Below, in pieces: positions 26,980 through 33,918 of a DNA stretch of 64,000 nt. A model generated the notes under the pieces. It did not search any database and was not told where the DNA came from. It saw only the letters and a program-made list of their open reading frames with translations. The stretch comes from Cnuella takakiae (GTDB taxonomy: Bacteria; Bacteroidota; Bacteroidia; Chitinophagales; Chitinophagaceae), in the NCBI RefSeq assembly GCF_001953305.1, contig NZ_MTFE01000010.1, forward strand, positions 2,849,740 to 2,913,739. The letters are read 5' to 3'. The first letter of the stretch is position 1; every line of letters starts with the position of its first letter. The position numbers and the translations under genes are program-made.

Positions 26980-27066
26980 GGAGAGGTGCCAGAGCGGTCG
27001 AATGGGACGGTCTCGAAAACCGTTGTATGGGTAACTGTACCGAGGGTTCGAATCCCTCCCTCTCCG
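26980..27066 (+). tRNA. tRNA-Ser (anticodon CGA)
   Basis: An 87-base cloverleaf: GGAGAGG pairs with CCTCTCC, anticodon loop CTCGAAA with CGA, T-loop GTTCGAATC, long variable arm. Discriminator G, no encoded CCA. Confidence 0.95.
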
Positions 27067-27210: not shown

Positions 27211-28095
27211 ATGATCGAAGCCGTTAAGTTCTGGAATGAACCCAACAACAAATCGCATTGGGATTTTGAAATTGATACCGACTGGAGCCGTTTTGCCGAT
27301 ATGGTAAAACTTTCCGCAGCTGCCGTGAAGGCAGAAAAGCCACAGCTTACCCGTGTACTGGGAGGCATTTCGCCCATTGATGCCTCTTTTATCCATCGCC
27401 TGCAGCAGTATGATACACTTCGGGATATTGATGCGGTAGCTGTACACGGGTTTCCGCTCGACTGGAACCACTGGCAAATACACGAATGGCCCAGTAAGAT
27501 TGCCGAAATAGAAGCTGCTACCAACTTACCGGTATGGGTAACCGAAGTAGGCGTTTCCACCTTCGGAGCCGAAGAAGTGCAGGAGTTTGGCATCCGCCGC
27601 ACCGCCGAACTGTTGCGCGGCCGTGTACCTCGTATTTTCTGGTACAGCCTCTACGACCTGCCCCGTGCCTGGGAAGCTACTACCCGCCACAGGGAAGCGG
27701 AAGGTTCCTCTTACTACCGTCATTTTTATATGGGCATCCTGCGTGAAGATGGTACGCCCAAACTGTCGATGAAACATTTTGCCGATTACACCCCCGAGAT
27801 GGGCATTTGTCAGTGGTTCCACTTTGAAGACCACCGGCTGGACGAAGCGGTAGAATGGCTCAAGCGCCTGGGGGTACGTTACCTGCGCACCGGCCTGAGC
27901 TGGGCCGACTGGCTGCGGCCTGATGCGGAACGTTGGTTCGACCGGGTGATGAAAGCCATTGAGCCTTTCGACACCACGGTAACTTTCTGTTTTACACCTG
28001 AAGCAAAAGGCATTGCACCCCACCATACCAGCCCGCCACAAAACAACCAGGAGTTCGCCGACTTCTGCGTGGAAATGATGCGCAGGTATGCGTAA
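27211..28095 (+). CDS. Glycosidase-like TIM barrel, apparently circularly permuted
   Basis: A 294-residue protein with clan GH-A character (beta-xylosidase / GH39-like). It begins abruptly with the fourth barrel strand: VKFWNEPNN (acid/base E10), then AVAVHGFP (strand 6), PVWVTEVGVS (nucleophile E112, strand 7) and IFWYSLYDL (strand 8). Only after this, at residue 197 on, come segments that normally open such barrels: MGICQWF (strand 1), VRYLRTGLSWADW (strand 2), TVTFCFTP (strand 3) and EFADFCVEMMRRYA, which in ordinary members leads straight into the NEP strand. So all eight strands appear once, in order 4-8 then 1-3. No signal peptide; no upstream N-terminal half exists, since a tRNA terminator is there. 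Activity is inferred. Confidence 0.7.
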   Translation: MIEAVKFWNEPNNKSHWDFEIDTDWSRFADMVKLSAAAVKAEKPQLTRVLGGISPIDASFIHRLQQYDTLRDIDAVAVHGFPLDWNHWQIHEWPSKIAEIEAATNLPVWVTEVGVSTFGAEEVQEFGIRRTAELLRGRVPRIFWYSLYDLPRAWEATTRHREAEGSSYYRHFYMGILREDGTPKLSMKHFADYTPEMGICQWFHFEDHRLDEAVEWLKRLGVRYLRTGLSWADWLRPDAERWFDRVMKAIEPFDTTVTFCFTPEAKGIAPHHTSPPQNNQEFADFCVEMMRRYA

Positions 28096-28326: not shown

Positions 28327-29232
28327 ATGTCTTTATCCTGGGACAAACTGATGCGGCAGGGCAACTTTGCCGCTGCCTGGCAACTATCTGATGCTGATCT
28401 GGAAAAACGCAAGGGCGTGCCTTGCTGGCACCTGCCCCGGCATTTTCAATACATTTGGAATGGTGAAACGCTGGCAAATAAAATAGTATTGGTGCGATGC
28501 TATCATGGTTTGGGTGATACCATCCAGTTCATACGCTATATGCCCCTGCTGAAAAAGGTGGCCGCAAAAGTGATGGTTTGGGCGCCAGTTCAAATGATCC
28601 CGCTCTTACAACATGCAGCAGGTATTGATGAATACTGGCCCCTGCACGATGGGACCCCCGAAATGCCCTATGATATTGATGTGGAACTGATGGAGCTGCC
28701 GCATTATTTCCGTACAACACTCGATACAATTCCCAACGCCGTACCCTACCTCGATATAACTGCAAAACAATTTCCGTATACCAACCAGTTATTGAAAGTT
28801 GGCCTGGTGTGGCGTTCGGGCGATTGGGATGAAAGCAGGAGCCTGCCTTTTGCCCTGGTAAAACAGTGGGCAGATGTTCCAGGTGTTGCCTTTTACATTG
28901 TACAGGCTGGGGCTGAAAAAGCAGGCTGGGATGGAACACTCGGACAGCTTGCCGGCGGCAATGACCTGCTTGAAGATGCACAAACCATCAAGGGCATGGA
29001 CCTTGTTATTTCAACCGACACCATGGTGGCACATCTTGCAGGTGCATTGGCAGTTCCTATTTGGACCCTGCTACCTAACCCCTGCGACTGGCGGTGGATG
29101 GATCACCGCAACGATTCGCCCTGGTATCCTACCATGCGCCTTTTCCGGCAGGAAGAGCCGGGCATTTGGCAAACCGTGATCAATCAGGTAAAAGAAGAAC
29201 TGCTAAAGCTTACCCTTGCTAGGCATCGGTAA
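28327..29232 (+). CDS. Glycosyltransferase family 9-like protein
   Basis: A 301-residue protein like the C-terminal part of TPR/heptosyltransferase-type proteins. KIVLVRCYHGLGDTIQFIRYMPLL is the family opening, and GMDLVISTDTMVAHLAGALAVP with WTLLPNPCDWRWM is the nucleotide-sugar site. No TPRs are attached. It probably transfers a sugar onto a surface glycan or lipid. Its 3' end overlaps the convergent FrhB-like gene by 14 bases and carries an embedded hairpin. Substrate unknown. Confidence 0.78.
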   Translation: MSLSWDKLMRQGNFAAAWQLSDADLEKRKGVPCWHLPRHFQYIWNGETLANKIVLVRCYHGLGDTIQFIRYMPLLKKVAAKVMVWAPVQMIPLLQHAAGIDEYWPLHDGTPEMPYDIDVELMELPHYFRTTLDTIPNAVPYLDITAKQFPYTNQLLKVGLVWRSGDWDESRSLPFALVKQWADVPGVAFYIVQAGAEKAGWDGTLGQLAGGNDLLEDAQTIKGMDLVISTDTMVAHLAGALAVPIWTLLPNPCDWRWMDHRNDSPWYPTMRLFRQEEPGIWQTVINQVKEELLKLTLARHR

Positions 29233-29244
29233 GCTTTAGCTTTT
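29202..29244 (+). terminator. Terminator-like hairpin inside overlapping gene ends
   Basis: Perfect 13-bp stem (29202-29214 with 29228-29240) with a 13-base loop, then TTTT on the plus strand. It spans the last codons of both the GT9-like gene and the convergent FrhB-like gene, whose stops overlap inside the loop and right arm. Confidence 0.65.
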
Positions 29245-30601
29245 GCACCAGTTTGCCCAACTTGCCCCGTTGGTAAGCCAGGGCATGGTACATGGCCGCA
29301 GCCATACGTGCCCATTTTATATAGATATTGGGTTTGCCTGTCTTCCGGGCCAAATGAAAAAAGCGGTGGCTTCCTTCCGAAATCCAGTACCGCATCCGGT
29401 AGATCAGTTTTCGGTTACGGGTAGGCGTAAGGGCATCAGGTGGCAGTCGTTTGATGGGTTGTACGCCTTTATTGCCCCACGATAGGCGGTAAGCCATGCC
29501 TTCCCGGCGCTGGCGGAAACCTGCAGCCTGTGTTTGCACCACGGTGGCGGCATCCACAGGCGTAAGGTGCAGGTCGCCATGAGCAATGCCTTCTTCAATC
29601 ATTTGTTGAACCAGCGCATGCCTGATCACCACCACGTTATTGCCCCCGCTGTCGGAAGCATATGGTTCGATCCAAGCATCACCAAAAGAAATGTCCGCTG
29701 TTTCGCCCACTACATCATCGCAGAAGTTGCAGGCAGGGTTCATAAAATAACCGGCGCCCCAGTCGCCATCGGCAAGGTGCCACCAATCCTTATTTACACT
29801 GCTGCCGTCTTTCAATGTTAGCCGGGCATTGTACCAGTTGGCAGGTCTTTCGGGATGCTTGGTGCGGTAAGCAACCTGGGTCACGTCCTCTATCGGCACA
29901 TCCATCTGCCAGGCAAAGCTTTCCACGAAACGGGCGCTTTTCATATGCCCGCAGAAAAGGCCAAGGGTGTAAACGATCCGCTCCTGTAACACCGGGTCTT
30001 CCCTGCGCAGCAGGTGCACCGCTTTTATAAAACAGGGGATGCCTACAATGGCATACCGGCCAGGTACCTGCCTGATCTCTTCCAATATTTCGGACATGTC
30101 GATAGGGTAGTACCTTGACTGGGCACCCTGGTTGATGGCTTCCAGCGAGCGGGAAATACGGAACTTGAAAAAGCGGCCGTCTTTTTCAGGGTCGGCTGGC
30201 ACCACGTGTGCCACACCATCTATCAGTCCACGCCGCATCAGTTCGGCAGCAACCCAGCTTACCATTCCACCCGAACTGCCCTGCATCCGGAACCCGCCAG
30301 TGGCAACATAACCTATATAGGATTGGGTAAACCGGCCAATATAGCCGTCGGTATGCGGAGCCGCTGGGTAGCGTTCCGCAGCAAGCTCGTTTTCATTTTT
30401 TGCCGCAGGCGAAAAAGGGCAGGTAAGGGTAAACTGGCTGGAAGGTGTTTGCAAAAACTGCCTGCTGCCTTTGGGTTTCAATTGGCCATAGGGGTCAAAT
30501 TCCATTCTTGCTTCCAAAGCCTTGTTCTGGGCTACGCAACTGCCGCAGCCAATGCACAATCCTGACTTAATGATATCCTTAGGTGCGAGTGTTTCCTTCA
30601 T
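29219..30601 (-). CDS. Coenzyme F420 hydrogenase beta-subunit (FrhB/FdhB) family protein
   Basis: A 460-residue cytosolic flavin/iron-sulfur protein of the FrhB family as found in polysaccharide clusters. C16-xx-C19-xx-C22 in LCIGCGSC and a TCPFSP Cys further on suggest a cluster; GIPCFIKAVHLL, GLFCGHMKS, ACNFCDDV and DISFGDAW are family motifs. It overlaps the pyruvyl transferase start/stop by four bases (30598-30601), so the two are translationally coupled. No F420 genes are near. In this context it likely supplies reductant for modification of a pyruvylated glycan; that is inference. Confidence 0.82.
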   Translation of the reverse strand: MKETLAPKDIIKSGLCIGCGSCVAQNKALEARMEFDPYGQLKPKGSRQFLQTPSSQFTLTCPFSPAAKNENELAAERYPAAPHTDGYIGRFTQSYIGYVATGGFRMQGSSGGMVSWVAAELMRRGLIDGVAHVVPADPEKDGRFFKFRISRSLEAINQGAQSRYYPIDMSEILEEIRQVPGRYAIVGIPCFIKAVHLLRREDPVLQERIVYTLGLFCGHMKSARFVESFAWQMDVPIEDVTQVAYRTKHPERPANWYNARLTLKDGSSVNKDWWHLADGDWGAGYFMNPACNFCDDVVGETADISFGDAWIEPYASDSGGNNVVVIRHALVQQMIEEGIAHGDLHLTPVDAATVVQTQAAGFRQRREGMAYRLSWGNKGVQPIKRLPPDALTPTRNRKLIYRMRYWISEGSHRFFHLARKTGKPNIYIKWARMAAAMYHALAYQRGKLGKLVQKLKLTDA

Positions 30602-31689
30602 GCGTACTGGTATTGTTTGAGTTGCAGGGCTCTTTGTAAATAAGCCTGCGAGCTTTGGCGCAACTGCCCGATACGGTGCAACAGGTAGGGCGCAAGGGGT
30701 TGGGTAAGCGCATCTTCAAATGCGGTATAAGGACTGCCTTCGTGCACCAGGTGGTTGAGGCCACCCAGCTTGTCCATCAGGCTGATTACCTTGATGCTGC
30801 GATAGGGCGTGGCAGCACAGGCAAAGGGCCGGTGGTAGCGGAGCGCAAATACACAACCATGAAAAAAGTTGGTGATCACTGCGGCACTGTTGCGCATAAA
30901 CCCGTCAAATTCGATCGGGCCAGCTTCAATCCAGTGCTGATCGGCCCAATCGTTCCGGTAGCCGATGCTTACCAGGGGCAGTCCGCTGCGGCGGGCAAAC
31001 TCCTTTGCATGTTCGATAAAATGAGGTTCAAAATTATGGCCGTAAACCGCCAGGTAGCGCTCGGGTACCGGTTGGTCCGTATCGGGTGCACCGGGCTCCT
31101 CGGTCAGCAGGCAGGGATCCACTACCAGTTCGGGATCGATGCCGGTAGCACTTTGTACCAACTGGCGGCTGTTTTGATCGCGCACAGCAATCAGGTCAAA
31201 CTGCCGGAGCTTTTCCGCCCATTCTGCTCCAAGCCCCTGTTGTGCGGGGTAGCTGCCAAAGCTGGCTGCATAACTCACCAACATCTGGGTGTTGACGCCG
31301 TCGCCCCAAAAAAGGGAAGCGCCGCCATACCATGGGTGGAATAAATTCCATACTTCATCACTGCCCACCACTACCAGGTCGGATGGGGGCATTTGACCTG
31401 CATCTTCAAGCGGAAAGGGTTCGGAGCAGGGCATCTGTTCGAAAGCCTCCATAAAGGCGTTTAACCTTTTCCGGTAAAAGGGTCGGTCGGAAGGGGGGAC
31501 GGGTGTGGGCAATACTGGTTGCAGCCCGCATTTCAGCTCTGCAAACAATACCCTTCCCGATTGGTGCTCCAGCAAACGAACGGCTGCGCCTTCCTTTGCC
31601 AGGAAGCGAACCAGGTGCATGGCCTGCCAGTAACTACCATAATTAAAACTTTTGTGCAAAGTGAGTACGCCGATCTTCAGTGGGTTCAT
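30598..31689 (-). CDS. Polysaccharide pyruvyl transferase family protein
   Basis: A 363-residue GT-B-like enzyme that places a pyruvate ketal on a sugar residue from PEP. KIGVLTLHKSFNYGSYWQAM opens the domain; VVGSDEVWNL, YGHNFEPHFIEHAKEF, and AAVITNFFHGCVFALRYHRPF are the family's substrate-site motifs. ATG 31689 gives the standard start; an ORF to 31776 is longer but without support. It is the first gene of a two-gene transcript with the FrhB-like protein. Confidence 0.85.
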   Translation of the reverse strand: MNPLKIGVLTLHKSFNYGSYWQAMHLVRFLAKEGAAVRLLEHQSGRVLFAELKCGLQPVLPTPVPPSDRPFYRKRLNAFMEAFEQMPCSEPFPLEDAGQMPPSDLVVVGSDEVWNLFHPWYGGASLFWGDGVNTQMLVSYAASFGSYPAQQGLGAEWAEKLRQFDLIAVRDQNSRQLVQSATGIDPELVVDPCLLTEEPGAPDTDQPVPERYLAVYGHNFEPHFIEHAKEFARRSGLPLVSIGYRNDWADQHWIEAGPIEFDGFMRNSAAVITNFFHGCVFALRYHRPFACAATPYRSIKVISLMDKLGGLNHLVHEGSPYTAFEDALTQPLAPYLLHRIGQLRQSSQAYLQRALQLKQYQYA

Positions 31690-31839
31690 GTTTGCCGGTA
31701 TTTTGCGGATGGTGCCGGGAAGCTTTGCCCCGGCGGCTATTTGCCGGATGCAAAAGGCGGTCCAGCAGGGGTGCATGGATGGGCTTTATTATTGCAAAGC
31801 TTTGTAGCTGTACATTTTTACCTCAACCACCTTTTTCAA

Positions 31840-32442
31840 ATGACCACATTTATCCTGATCAGGCATGCTACCACCATCGATGTGGGTACCCGGCTTTCCG
31901 GCCGTAAAGAAGGTGTTGTGCTTACCGAAACCGGTGTGGCCGAAGCCGATGCCCTGGCGCAAAGACTTTCCGGTTTGCAGGTAGCTGCACTTTACAGCAG
32001 TCCCATGGAAAGGGCGCAGGCTACTGCAGCACCGCTTGCGCAAGTTTGGGGAAAAGAAGTAGCGGTGATGGAAGCCTTCAATGAAATTGATTTTGGCGCG
32101 TGGACCCAGGCTCAATTCAGCGGGCTGCATTCCGATCCACAATTTGCTTTGTTCAACCAGTTTCGAAGCCATACCCGCATACCCGGGGGCGAAACCATGC
32201 TGGAGGCGCAGTGTCGTATGGTGCAGGGGCTTCAACAATTAATGCAGCAGCACCCGCAGCAGAAAGTTGCCATCGTTAGCCACTGCGATATGATCAAGGC
32301 TGTAGTTGCCTATTACCTTGGAATGAGCCTCGATCACCTGCTTCGCCTGGATATAGAACCGGCTTCGGTTACGGTGCTCACCGTTTATCCTGAAACAACG
32401 CGTTTGCAATTATTAAATCATAGGGGAGCGGTGGTGTTGTAA
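31840..32442 (+). CDS. Histidine phosphatase (phosphoglycerate mutase-like)
   Basis: A 200-residue branch-2 type histidine phosphatase. ILIRHATT (R8-H9) holds the phospho-accepting His; SSPMERAQATA, EIDFGAWT and VAIVSHCDMIKA supply the remaining phosphate-pocket residues. I start at ATG 31840, where family similarity begins; the ORF is open far upstream. Substrate could be phosphosugar, phosphoglycerate or cobalamin-type ester. It precedes the inositol-phosphate synthase by 150 bases, but inositol monophosphatases are a different family, so a joint path is unproven. Confidence 0.83.
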   Translation: MTTFILIRHATTIDVGTRLSGRKEGVVLTETGVAEADALAQRLSGLQVAALYSSPMERAQATAAPLAQVWGKEVAVMEAFNEIDFGAWTQAQFSGLHSDPQFALFNQFRSHTRIPGGETMLEAQCRMVQGLQQLMQQHPQQKVAIVSHCDMIKAVVAYYLGMSLDHLLRLDIEPASVTVLTVYPETTRLQLLNHRGAVVL

Positions 32443-32592: not shown

Positions 32593-33918
32593 ATGCGCAA
32601 TGCCATTGCACCCGCCCAGGGAAAACTGGGTGTATTAATTCCCGGACTGGGGGCGGTAGCCACCACCCTTATTGCCGGTGTAGCTGCTGTAAAAAAAGAC
32701 CTCGCTCAGCCTGTTGGCTCGCTCACCCAGATGGGTAGCATTCGTTTGGGTAAAAGAACGGAAGGCCGCTCACCCAAGATCAAAGATTTTGTTCCCCTCG
32801 CCAACCTCGATGAACTGGTATTTGGCGGATGGGATGTATATGCCGATAATGTTTTAGAAGCGGCTATGAAAGCCAAAGTGCTGGAGCCCATGATGCTGCA
32901 TGCTGTAAGAGCAGAACTGGAAAGCATCAAACCAATGAAGGCCGTGTTTGACCGCAGCTATGTGGCCAATCTCGATAGCACCCATGTAAAAGAAGCACCA
33001 ACCAAGGCTGAACTTGCCAAGGCTTTAATGGATGATATTGAAAACTTCAGGGATGCCAACGATTGTACCCGTGTGGTAATTGTTTGGTGCGGATCTACCG
33101 AGAAATACATTGAAGTTTCCGAAGTCCACGAATCCATTGAAGCATTTGAAGAAGGCCTCCGCAACAACGACCCGCAGATTTCACCTTCCATGATCTATGC
33201 ATATGCGGCCATTAAGCTCGGTGTGCCCTTTATGAATGGTGCGCCTAACCTTACCTGCGATATTCCGGCATTGATGGAGCTGGCCAGGCAAACCGGTACA
33301 CCCATTGGCGGTAAGGATTTTAAAACCGGTCAAACGCTGATGAAGACCATCCTGGCACCTGGACTGGCCGCAAGAGCGCTGGGCATCAAGGGTTGGTTCT
33401 CCTCCAATATCCTGGGCAACAGGGATGGGTATGTGCTGGATCATCCGGATAATTTCAAAACCAAGGAAGTATCGAAGCTCAGTGTGCTGGAAGATATCTT
33501 GCAGCCCGATGCCAATCCCGAGTTGTACGGTGATATTTACCACAAGGTGCGGATCAACTACTATCCGCCGCATGGCGACAATAAGGAGAGCTGGGACAAT
33601 ATCGACATCTTTGGCTGGCTGGGTTACAGCATGCAGATCAAGATCAACTTTCTTTGCCGCGACTCCATCCTTGCAGCGCCCATTGTACTGGACCTTGCCC
33701 TGTTTGCCGACCTGGCCAAGCGGGCCAATATGTCGGGTATCCAGGAATGGCTGTCTTTTTATTTCAAAAGCCCGCAAACTTTACCCGAGCTGCGGCCCGA
33801 ACATGATATTTTCAAACAGTTGATTAAGCTGCAAAATACCCTGCGCCACATGATGGGTGAAGACCTGATCACCCACCTTGGGCTGGATTACTACCAGGAC
33901 CTGGTAGAAACCCTGTAA
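32593..33918 (+). CDS. ino1: Inositol-3-phosphate synthase
   Basis: A 441-residue NAD-dependent enzyme that turns glucose 6-phosphate into myo-inositol 3-phosphate. VLIPGLGAVATT is the Rossmann loop; NGAPNLTCDIPAL, IGGKDFKTGQT and SWDNIDIFGWLGY are conserved active-site regions. It supplies inositol for phosphoinositol lipids known in Bacteroidota. Unlike the Bacteroides cluster, no CDP-alcohol transferase or phosphatase of that set is adjacent; only the histidine phosphatase upstream. Followed by a strong terminator, so monocistronic or bicistronic. Confidence 0.93.
   Translation: MRNAIAPAQGKLGVLIPGLGAVATTLIAGVAAVKKDLAQPVGSLTQMGSIRLGKRTEGRSPKIKDFVPLANLDELVFGGWDVYADNVLEAAMKAKVLEPMMLHAVRAELESIKPMKAVFDRSYVANLDSTHVKEAPTKAELAKALMDDIENFRDANDCTRVVIVWCGSTEKYIEVSEVHESIEAFEEGLRNNDPQISPSMIYAYAAIKLGVPFMNGAPNLTCDIPALMELARQTGTPIGGKDFKTGQTLMKTILAPGLAARALGIKGWFSSNILGNRDGYVLDHPDNFKTKEVSKLSVLEDILQPDANPELYGDIYHKVRINYYPPHGDNKESWDNIDIFGWLGYSMQIKINFLCRDSILAAPIVLDLALFADLAKRANMSGIQEWLSFYFKSPQTLPELRPEHDIFKQLIKLQNTLRHMMGEDLITHLGLDYYQDLVETL

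Follow-up and report, generated by a model that had tools for sequence, protein, structure and literature searches.

Clan GH-A is among the best-studied enzyme groups, and in its glycosidases the acid/base glutamate follows an asparagine at the end of strand 4 and the nucleophile glutamate lies at the end of strand 7 of an eight-stranded (beta/alpha)8 barrel whose chain starts at strand 1. One of them is PslG of Pseudomonas aeruginosa (PDB 4zn2, 5bx9 and 9g17, the last with a pentasaccharide bound), which we take to be a member of family GH39 and which is unpermuted, with a chain of 416 aa. Residues E165 and E276 are described as key for PslG activity in PMC9075953, and the involvement of its hydrolytic activity in Psl synthesis is described in PMC6813494; the enzyme is reported to be encoded within a glycan-biosynthesis cluster, and its part in Psl synthesis sets a precedent for a glycosidase in a biosynthetic pathway. 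A natural permutation of a glycosidase TIM barrel has been recorded in the GH70 glucansucrases (clan GH-H), whose barrels, according to PMC11046441, are a permuted version of the GH13 barrel in which the chain begins with helix 3 and strand 4 and ends with strand 3. Among proteins of glycan biosynthesis, PgaB has also been reported to contain a permuted barrel, its CE4 domain (PMC13366581; also a title cited in PMC10485009), but that domain is a deacetylase of another fold family, (alpha/beta)7, and no glycosidase; a title on a permuted lectin is cited in PMC12137362. The kind of event is thus known from GH70, and among the open-licence literature matches listed no naturally permuted glycosidase of clan GH-A was noticed.

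The window, that is, the whole stretch of 64,000 nucleotides of Cnuella DNA that was analysed, contains an ORF at 27211-28095 (+ strand, ATG start) which encodes a protein of 294 aa. Sequence comparison shows a clan GH-A barrel that has undergone natural circular permutation and is conserved in this form; it resembles PslG most, and its putative strand order is 4-5-6-7-8-1-2-3. NEP stands at residues 9-11 and WYSL at residues 144-147, with E112 as the glutamate of strand 7, and the C-terminal third carries GICQWF (198-203), RTGLSWADW (226-234) and TFCFTP (258-263). Residues 197-294 (27799-28092, + strand) form the segment of strands 1-3 which, as judged from the cut scan and the swapped alignments described below, stands before strand 4 in unpermuted relatives. 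No half-barrel was found before the ORF. Once rejoined, the protein is collinear with PslG and has the same acid/base and nucleophile positions; PslG differs in being unpermuted and longer, whereas the window protein is barrel only, is permuted and has other neighbours.

The ORF is no chance reading frame, and the permuted family is large and conserved rather than a local oddity. A scan of one genome each for 84,980 species gave 446 stretches that matched the search pattern, among which 434 encode relatives; the statement of the initial annotation that similar full sequences occur in other bacteria is thus correct. The best 80 of the 434 relatives (70-81% identity) were kept and read; they are proteins of 293 to 343 residues, and 80/80 share the permuted order of the window protein, which they match from residue 1-2 up to 286-294. 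A total of 135 permuted sequences were collected for comparison, of which 117 remained after identical or short ones had been dropped, and N9, E10 and E112 are invariant in all 117. The codon of E10, the predicted acid/base in the NEP of strand 4, lies at 27238-27240 and that of E112, the predicted nucleophile in strand 7, at 27544-27546 (both + strand). Both assignments are drawn from this invariance and from the alignment with PslG, in which E10 falls on chain position 139 and E112 on 250 (counted by eye), positions that are 26 below E165 and E276 of the full protein (likewise by eye). In the structure model described below, N9-E10 comes right after strand 2-7 and E112 lies within strand 108-113, which is the catalytic pattern of clan GH-A.

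The similarity to PslG was compared between the native order and a rejoined order consisting of residues 197-294 followed by 1-196. As a single native sequence the protein did not find PslG in the PDB at E values up to 10, the best match being the beta-xylosidase 6uqj (E 0.021, residues 6-85), and the rejoined single sequence matched PslG at E 2.9e-6 over residues 4-235. A five-sequence profile in native order matched PslG with 25.5 bits (E 6.8e-5) over residues 3-153 only, and the same five sequences rejoined gave 43.9 bits (E 1.8e-10) over residues 4-251; a 31-member native profile also finds PslG, yet only over 3-153 (31.1 bits). Significant similarity to a GH39 member is therefore found via PslG, in part in the native order and over nearly the whole barrel on rejoining, and the fact that rejoining makes the match full-length supports a permutation. 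As a sequence relationship, the similarity to PslG is remote. The Pfam family PF11790 (Glyco_hydro_cc) scores above its cut-off in native order (26.6 versus 21 bits) and rises only slightly on rejoining, to 27.7 bits, and no GH39 Pfam model was among the matches listed at E values up to 10. The sequence matches of the protein are PslG and other GH-A glycosidases; neither GH13 nor GH70 was among them, and the GH13/GH70 catalytic motifs were not found.

An AlphaFold2 model of the 294-aa protein, built on an alignment of 31 permuted members, reached a pLDDT of 85.6 and a pTM of 0.88. The predicted fold is an eight-stranded (beta/alpha)8 barrel, with strands at residues 2-7, 47-50, 75-79, 108-113, 142-145, 197-200, 224-230 and 254-260 and helices between them, and its chain starts at strand 4 instead of strand 1. 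The weak regions of the model are residues 11-20, 81-90 and 261-270 (mean pLDDT 58-60), which include loops beside the active site. According to the model, the chain would close the usual barrel and bring E10 and E112 together at the strand ends. By sequence, the new start is at strand 4, in what was the beta3-beta4 loop; helix 8 is connected with strand 1 by some three residues (194-196), and the chain now ends after helix 3. In structure searches with VIA, TIM-barrel matches cover residues 1-294 (best Z 13.4), and the de novo barrel 7uek matches from residue 3 (Z 12.7); Foldseek TM-scores to whole barrels are low (about 0.2-0.5). Generic TIM barrels head the results of both Foldseek and VIA, and PslG was not among the 50 matches listed, a result which fits a permutation if both tools align in chain order, as is assumed here, and which by itself proves nothing.

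The cut is nearly the same as that of the GH70 glucansucrases, the permuted GH-A family running from strand 4 round to helix 3. GH70 enzymes are described as related to GH13, with other catalytic motifs, and as large multidomain enzymes; given these differences, the two permutations would be independent. From the near-identity of the cut, the chain may well tolerate being broken in the beta3-beta4 region.

An unpermuted sibling of the enzyme was recovered by a tblastn search of plasmids, which returned 147 records, of which 97 share 60-80% identity and the other 50 less than 60%; the two records of the latter group that were opened are fusions with a GH domain ahead of an NAD-dependent epimerase. 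The sibling fusion belongs to the same cluster type as the permuted enzyme, from which it differs in having the normal strand order, in being fused to the epimerase-type protein SDR1 and in being often catalytically altered where the permuted enzyme co-occurs. The native window protein aligned with the Rhizobium etli fusion WP_011427519.1 in two swapped HSPs, 2-185 on 118-299 (84.3 bits) and 194-294 on 13-115 (57.0 bits), and the rejoined protein in a single one, 2-283 on 17-299 (131 bits, E 1.8e-38), with 31% identity over the GH domain. This GH domain had no Pfam match at E 0.01. The epimerase halves of five fusions are 53-62% identical to the stand-alone SDR1 of the Cnuella genome (L094, 3337-4473), whose frame contains no GH domain. 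With a profile built from eight siblings, PslG comes first and aligns collinearly (E 3.5e-6). A PDB search with the sibling sequence of locus L067 alone gave no sensible match; a low-confidence model of that domain (two sequences, pLDDT 63.8) has the normal strand order, and its top three structural matches are PslG.

An HMM was made from 21 unpermuted domains, 18 fused and three outgroup, and the non-permuted rows L093, L162, L130, L131, L134 and L135 were left out of both HMM and tree as weak, truncated or duplicate. Against this HMM all 117 distinct permuted members scored better rejoined (mean 216.7 versus 139.8 bits), and a scan of 147 cut points in the window protein peaked at residues 186-196 with 219-222 bits, the native order scoring 142. 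The initial annotation had read the order of motifs as a circularly permuted TIM-barrel glycosidase with the NEP strand first and strands 1-3 last, to be checked by structure prediction and by comparing the rejoined with the native order; the predicted full set of eight strands and the rejoined alignments, which are far better than the native ones against both PslG and the unpermuted siblings, agree with it. Its further points, that each strand occurs once, which speaks against duplication as well as fragment, and that the termini lie between strands 3 and 4, are borne out by a model with exactly eight strands, a chain that starts at strand 4 and a C-terminus after helix 3.

In a tree of 138 sequences, rooted on the distant outgroup of three, the permuted members form one clade (117/117) with a moderate support of 0.893 and the fused domains another (18/18, support 0.998). 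The single permuted clade fits one permutation event, which probably came about when a GH gene was duplicated in tandem and then acquired a new start and a new stop. The outgroup sequences (L120, L121 and L122) are stand-alone Bacteroidota frames of 482-495 codons with a distant unpermuted GH domain in which NEP and the second glutamate are intact.

The genes next to the permuted gene point to the pathway in which it may act. A GT9-like (heptosyltransferase-type) gene follows at 28327-29232 (+; Pfam PF01075, 22.1 bits at a cut-off of 22) and was matched in 42 of the 80 relative loci (best 80 of 434), in 40 with over 150 bits. It is followed by an FrhB/FdhB-type protein resembling coenzyme F420 hydrogenase beta (29219-30601, -; PF04432 and PF04422; 27/80 loci), a polysaccharide pyruvyl transferase (30598-31776, -; PF04230; 27/80 loci), whose true start is probably inside the ORF as judged by eye, and a histidine phosphatase-like gene (31840-32442, +), 43% identical (112 bits) to the histidine phosphatase of a Paracoccus cluster; the ORF of the last opens at 31519, and its start was placed at MTTFIL by eye. 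A myo-inositol-1-phosphate synthase lies at 32593-33918 (+; PF07994 and PF01658), with close relatives in 18/80 loci (e.g. L017, L038 and L045; best 80 of 434), and shares just 24% identity, over part of its length, with the Paracoccus-cluster Ino1. A cluster carries one of these two distinct inositol-phosphate synthase types, either that of the window or that of Paracoccus. Acquired DNA usually lands at tRNA genes, and Rfam places one at 26980-27066, just upstream of the part of the cluster that the window contains.

The pathway genes of the Cnuella genome are divided between two places on the same contig, six in the window and nine about 715 kb away (L094, G000:C1, approximately 2,152,197-2,161,961), the latter comprising two SDRs, a Zn-dehydrogenase, a Gfo/Idh/MocA protein, four glycosyltransferases and a TIGR04290 methyltransferase. 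Most of them are grouped together in other genomes in varying sets (e.g. L067). Matches above 150 bits were counted within about 6 kb in the 80 best loci, some of which are cut short, and amounted to 40 for GT9, 38 for the methyltransferase, 27 each for FrhB and the pyruvyl transferase, 26 each for GTa, GTb and the Paracoccus-type Ino1, 25 for SDR2 and 21 for SDR1, where cross-matching is possible between GTa and GTb and between SDR1 and SDR2. Another recurrent neighbour, found in 15 of the 80 best loci, is a 584-aa protein without a Pfam match at E 0.001 (L083:12969-14723), and a TIGR04295 B12-binding radical SAM protein ('B12_rSAM_oligo') occurs in some clusters (L083:6714-8021 and L076:10269-11549), the type being matched in 3/80 best loci with an Azospirillum query.

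The neighbouring genes were taken to make up a mobile pathway that builds a glycan with inositol and pyruvate, and because of them a biosynthetic role is suggested for the permuted enzyme. It would be a cytoplasmic retaining beta-glycosidase or transglycosidase and act, by trimming or transferring a sugar, on an intermediate in a dedicated pathway that comprises the inositol-1-phosphate synthase, a phosphatase, the pyruvyl transferase, several glycosyltransferases, two SDRs and the methyltransferase. Its step may be the one that, in other genomes, falls to the unpermuted GH domain of the SDR1 fusion. An ordinary catabolic beta-xylosidase, cutting plant-derived xylosides after uptake, is an improbable alternative: several plasmid records bear the annotation 'beta-xylosidase' and some clusters have an annotated UDP-glucuronate decarboxylase (UDP-xylose type), but the annotated neighbours in four permuted clusters, whose gene tables are incomplete, are mostly biosynthetic (glycosyltransferases, Ino1, pyruvyl transferase and methyltransferase), and the name itself appears to be a transferred annotation.

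The state of the sibling was compared between genomes with and without the permuted enzyme. Both the permuted enzyme and the fused sibling are present in 12 scorable genomes or contigs, and a catalytic glutamate of the sibling is altered in 11 of them: the nucleophile in G119, G1380 and L067, the acid/base in G1651, L076, G916 and G1062 (Glu to Asp in the last two), and both in G117, G471, G1652 and G1653. The remaining case, G1457, which belongs to the family of the Lysobacter genome G118, keeps all catalytic residues in both proteins. G328, which has the permuted gene, was left out of the scoring with its sibling cut by a contig edge, and the intact siblings of R. etli and X. sacchari were left out as plasmid records rather than whole genomes. 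The sibling occurs without a permuted match in 16 whole genomes, intact in 13 and altered in three (G1393, G1409 and G1446); G1400, of the same family as these three, has only a truncated permuted remnant. The Fisher value is 0.0008 without L067 and L076 and 0.0003 with both, kinship being ignored and the cases not being phylogenetically independent. The altered residues differ by clade, so that the alteration arose at least three separate times. In L067 the altered sibling lies about 4.3 kb from the intact permuted gene in one cluster, and in L076 the two genes also lie within one cluster. Candidate pseudo-glycosidases among the fused GH domains are L067:770-1720, L095, L096, L111, L132, L133, L185, L212, L213 and L238.

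From these comparisons of residues, the permuted enzyme probably took over the catalytic step of the sibling, with G1457, G1393, G1409 and G1446 standing as exceptions. A different relationship, with the permuted protein serving as a binding or scaffold barrel that does no catalysis and the altered sibling as its partner, not as the enzyme it replaced, might be suggested by the persistence of the altered sibling domain, which hints at a structural role of that domain, and by the sharing of one cluster in L067 and L076; the invariance of N9, E10 and E112 in the permuted members, unlike the sibling, makes it about as improbable as the xylosidase. Taken as a whole, the reading of a conserved natural permuted GH-A barrel, PslG-like and of single origin, which serves as a glycan-pathway glycosidase and replaces the fused sibling, is considered fairly likely. 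The fuller history, in which one ancient permutation gave rise to a free-standing GH-A enzyme that passed from phylum to phylum along with the pathway, displaced the catalytic domain of the fusion and left decaying pseudo-glycosidase domains behind, is more tentative, its chances being put at somewhat under even.

If the replacement is true, the system would be a natural experiment in which an enzyme gave way to a permuted homologue of itself, the cut being GH70-like and of separate origin. The permuted and unpermuted homologues share a pathway and sometimes a cluster, which makes the effect of permutation on stability, specificity and partner binding directly testable, and one may ask why the epimerase-fused catalytic domain decays when a permuted copy is present. 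Automatic names such as 'beta-xylosidase' may hide a biosynthetic glycosidase.

The N-terminus of the permuted protein is real and fixed, since the TIGR04290 methyltransferase gene upstream overlaps its start by 4 bases on plasmids of Azospirillum, Roseomonas and Paracoccus. In 22 relatives the frame stays open for more than 200 codons ahead of the permuted gene, and these long open frames are taken as GC-rich noise. An in-frame fusion upstream was considered and rejected: among 16 upstream loci checked, the methyltransferase was a separate gene in 12, in another frame in 11 and in the same frame with one stop between in one (L053), with no added half-barrel, and it was not found upstream in the other four (L017, L022, L025 and L161). 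A fragmentary, misassembled, partly duplicated or wrongly started ORF is highly implausible. The start at strand 4 is odd and the myxobacterial G1400 has just a C-terminal remnant, but the termini are identical in 80/80 read loci (best 80 of 434), each strand is present once in the model, the 4-base overlap recurs in three annotated clusters and the upstream methyltransferase stands apart in those 12 of 16 loci.

The relatives come from Bacteroidota, Pseudomonadota, Myxococcota, Acidobacteriota, Verrucomicrobiota, Gemmatimonadota and other phyla (assigned by hand), and the distribution of the permuted gene is patchy; Sinorhizobium meliloti 1021 is one laboratory strain that has it. There were three strong full-length matches among 117 genomes of the taxonomic family to which the window genome belongs, the window genome included, and the two listed genomes of the same genus gave no such match. 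A sample of 395 genomes from its phylum contained only the window genome's own copy. The permuted gene was present in 5/369 genomes of the class of Ramlibacter and in 26/193 of a myxobacterial phylum sample, and it is full length in G1653 (72%) and G328 (70%). A short myxobacterial frame (L162, G1400:C1:1519541-1519828) covers residues ~200-294 only and is apparently a deletion remnant.
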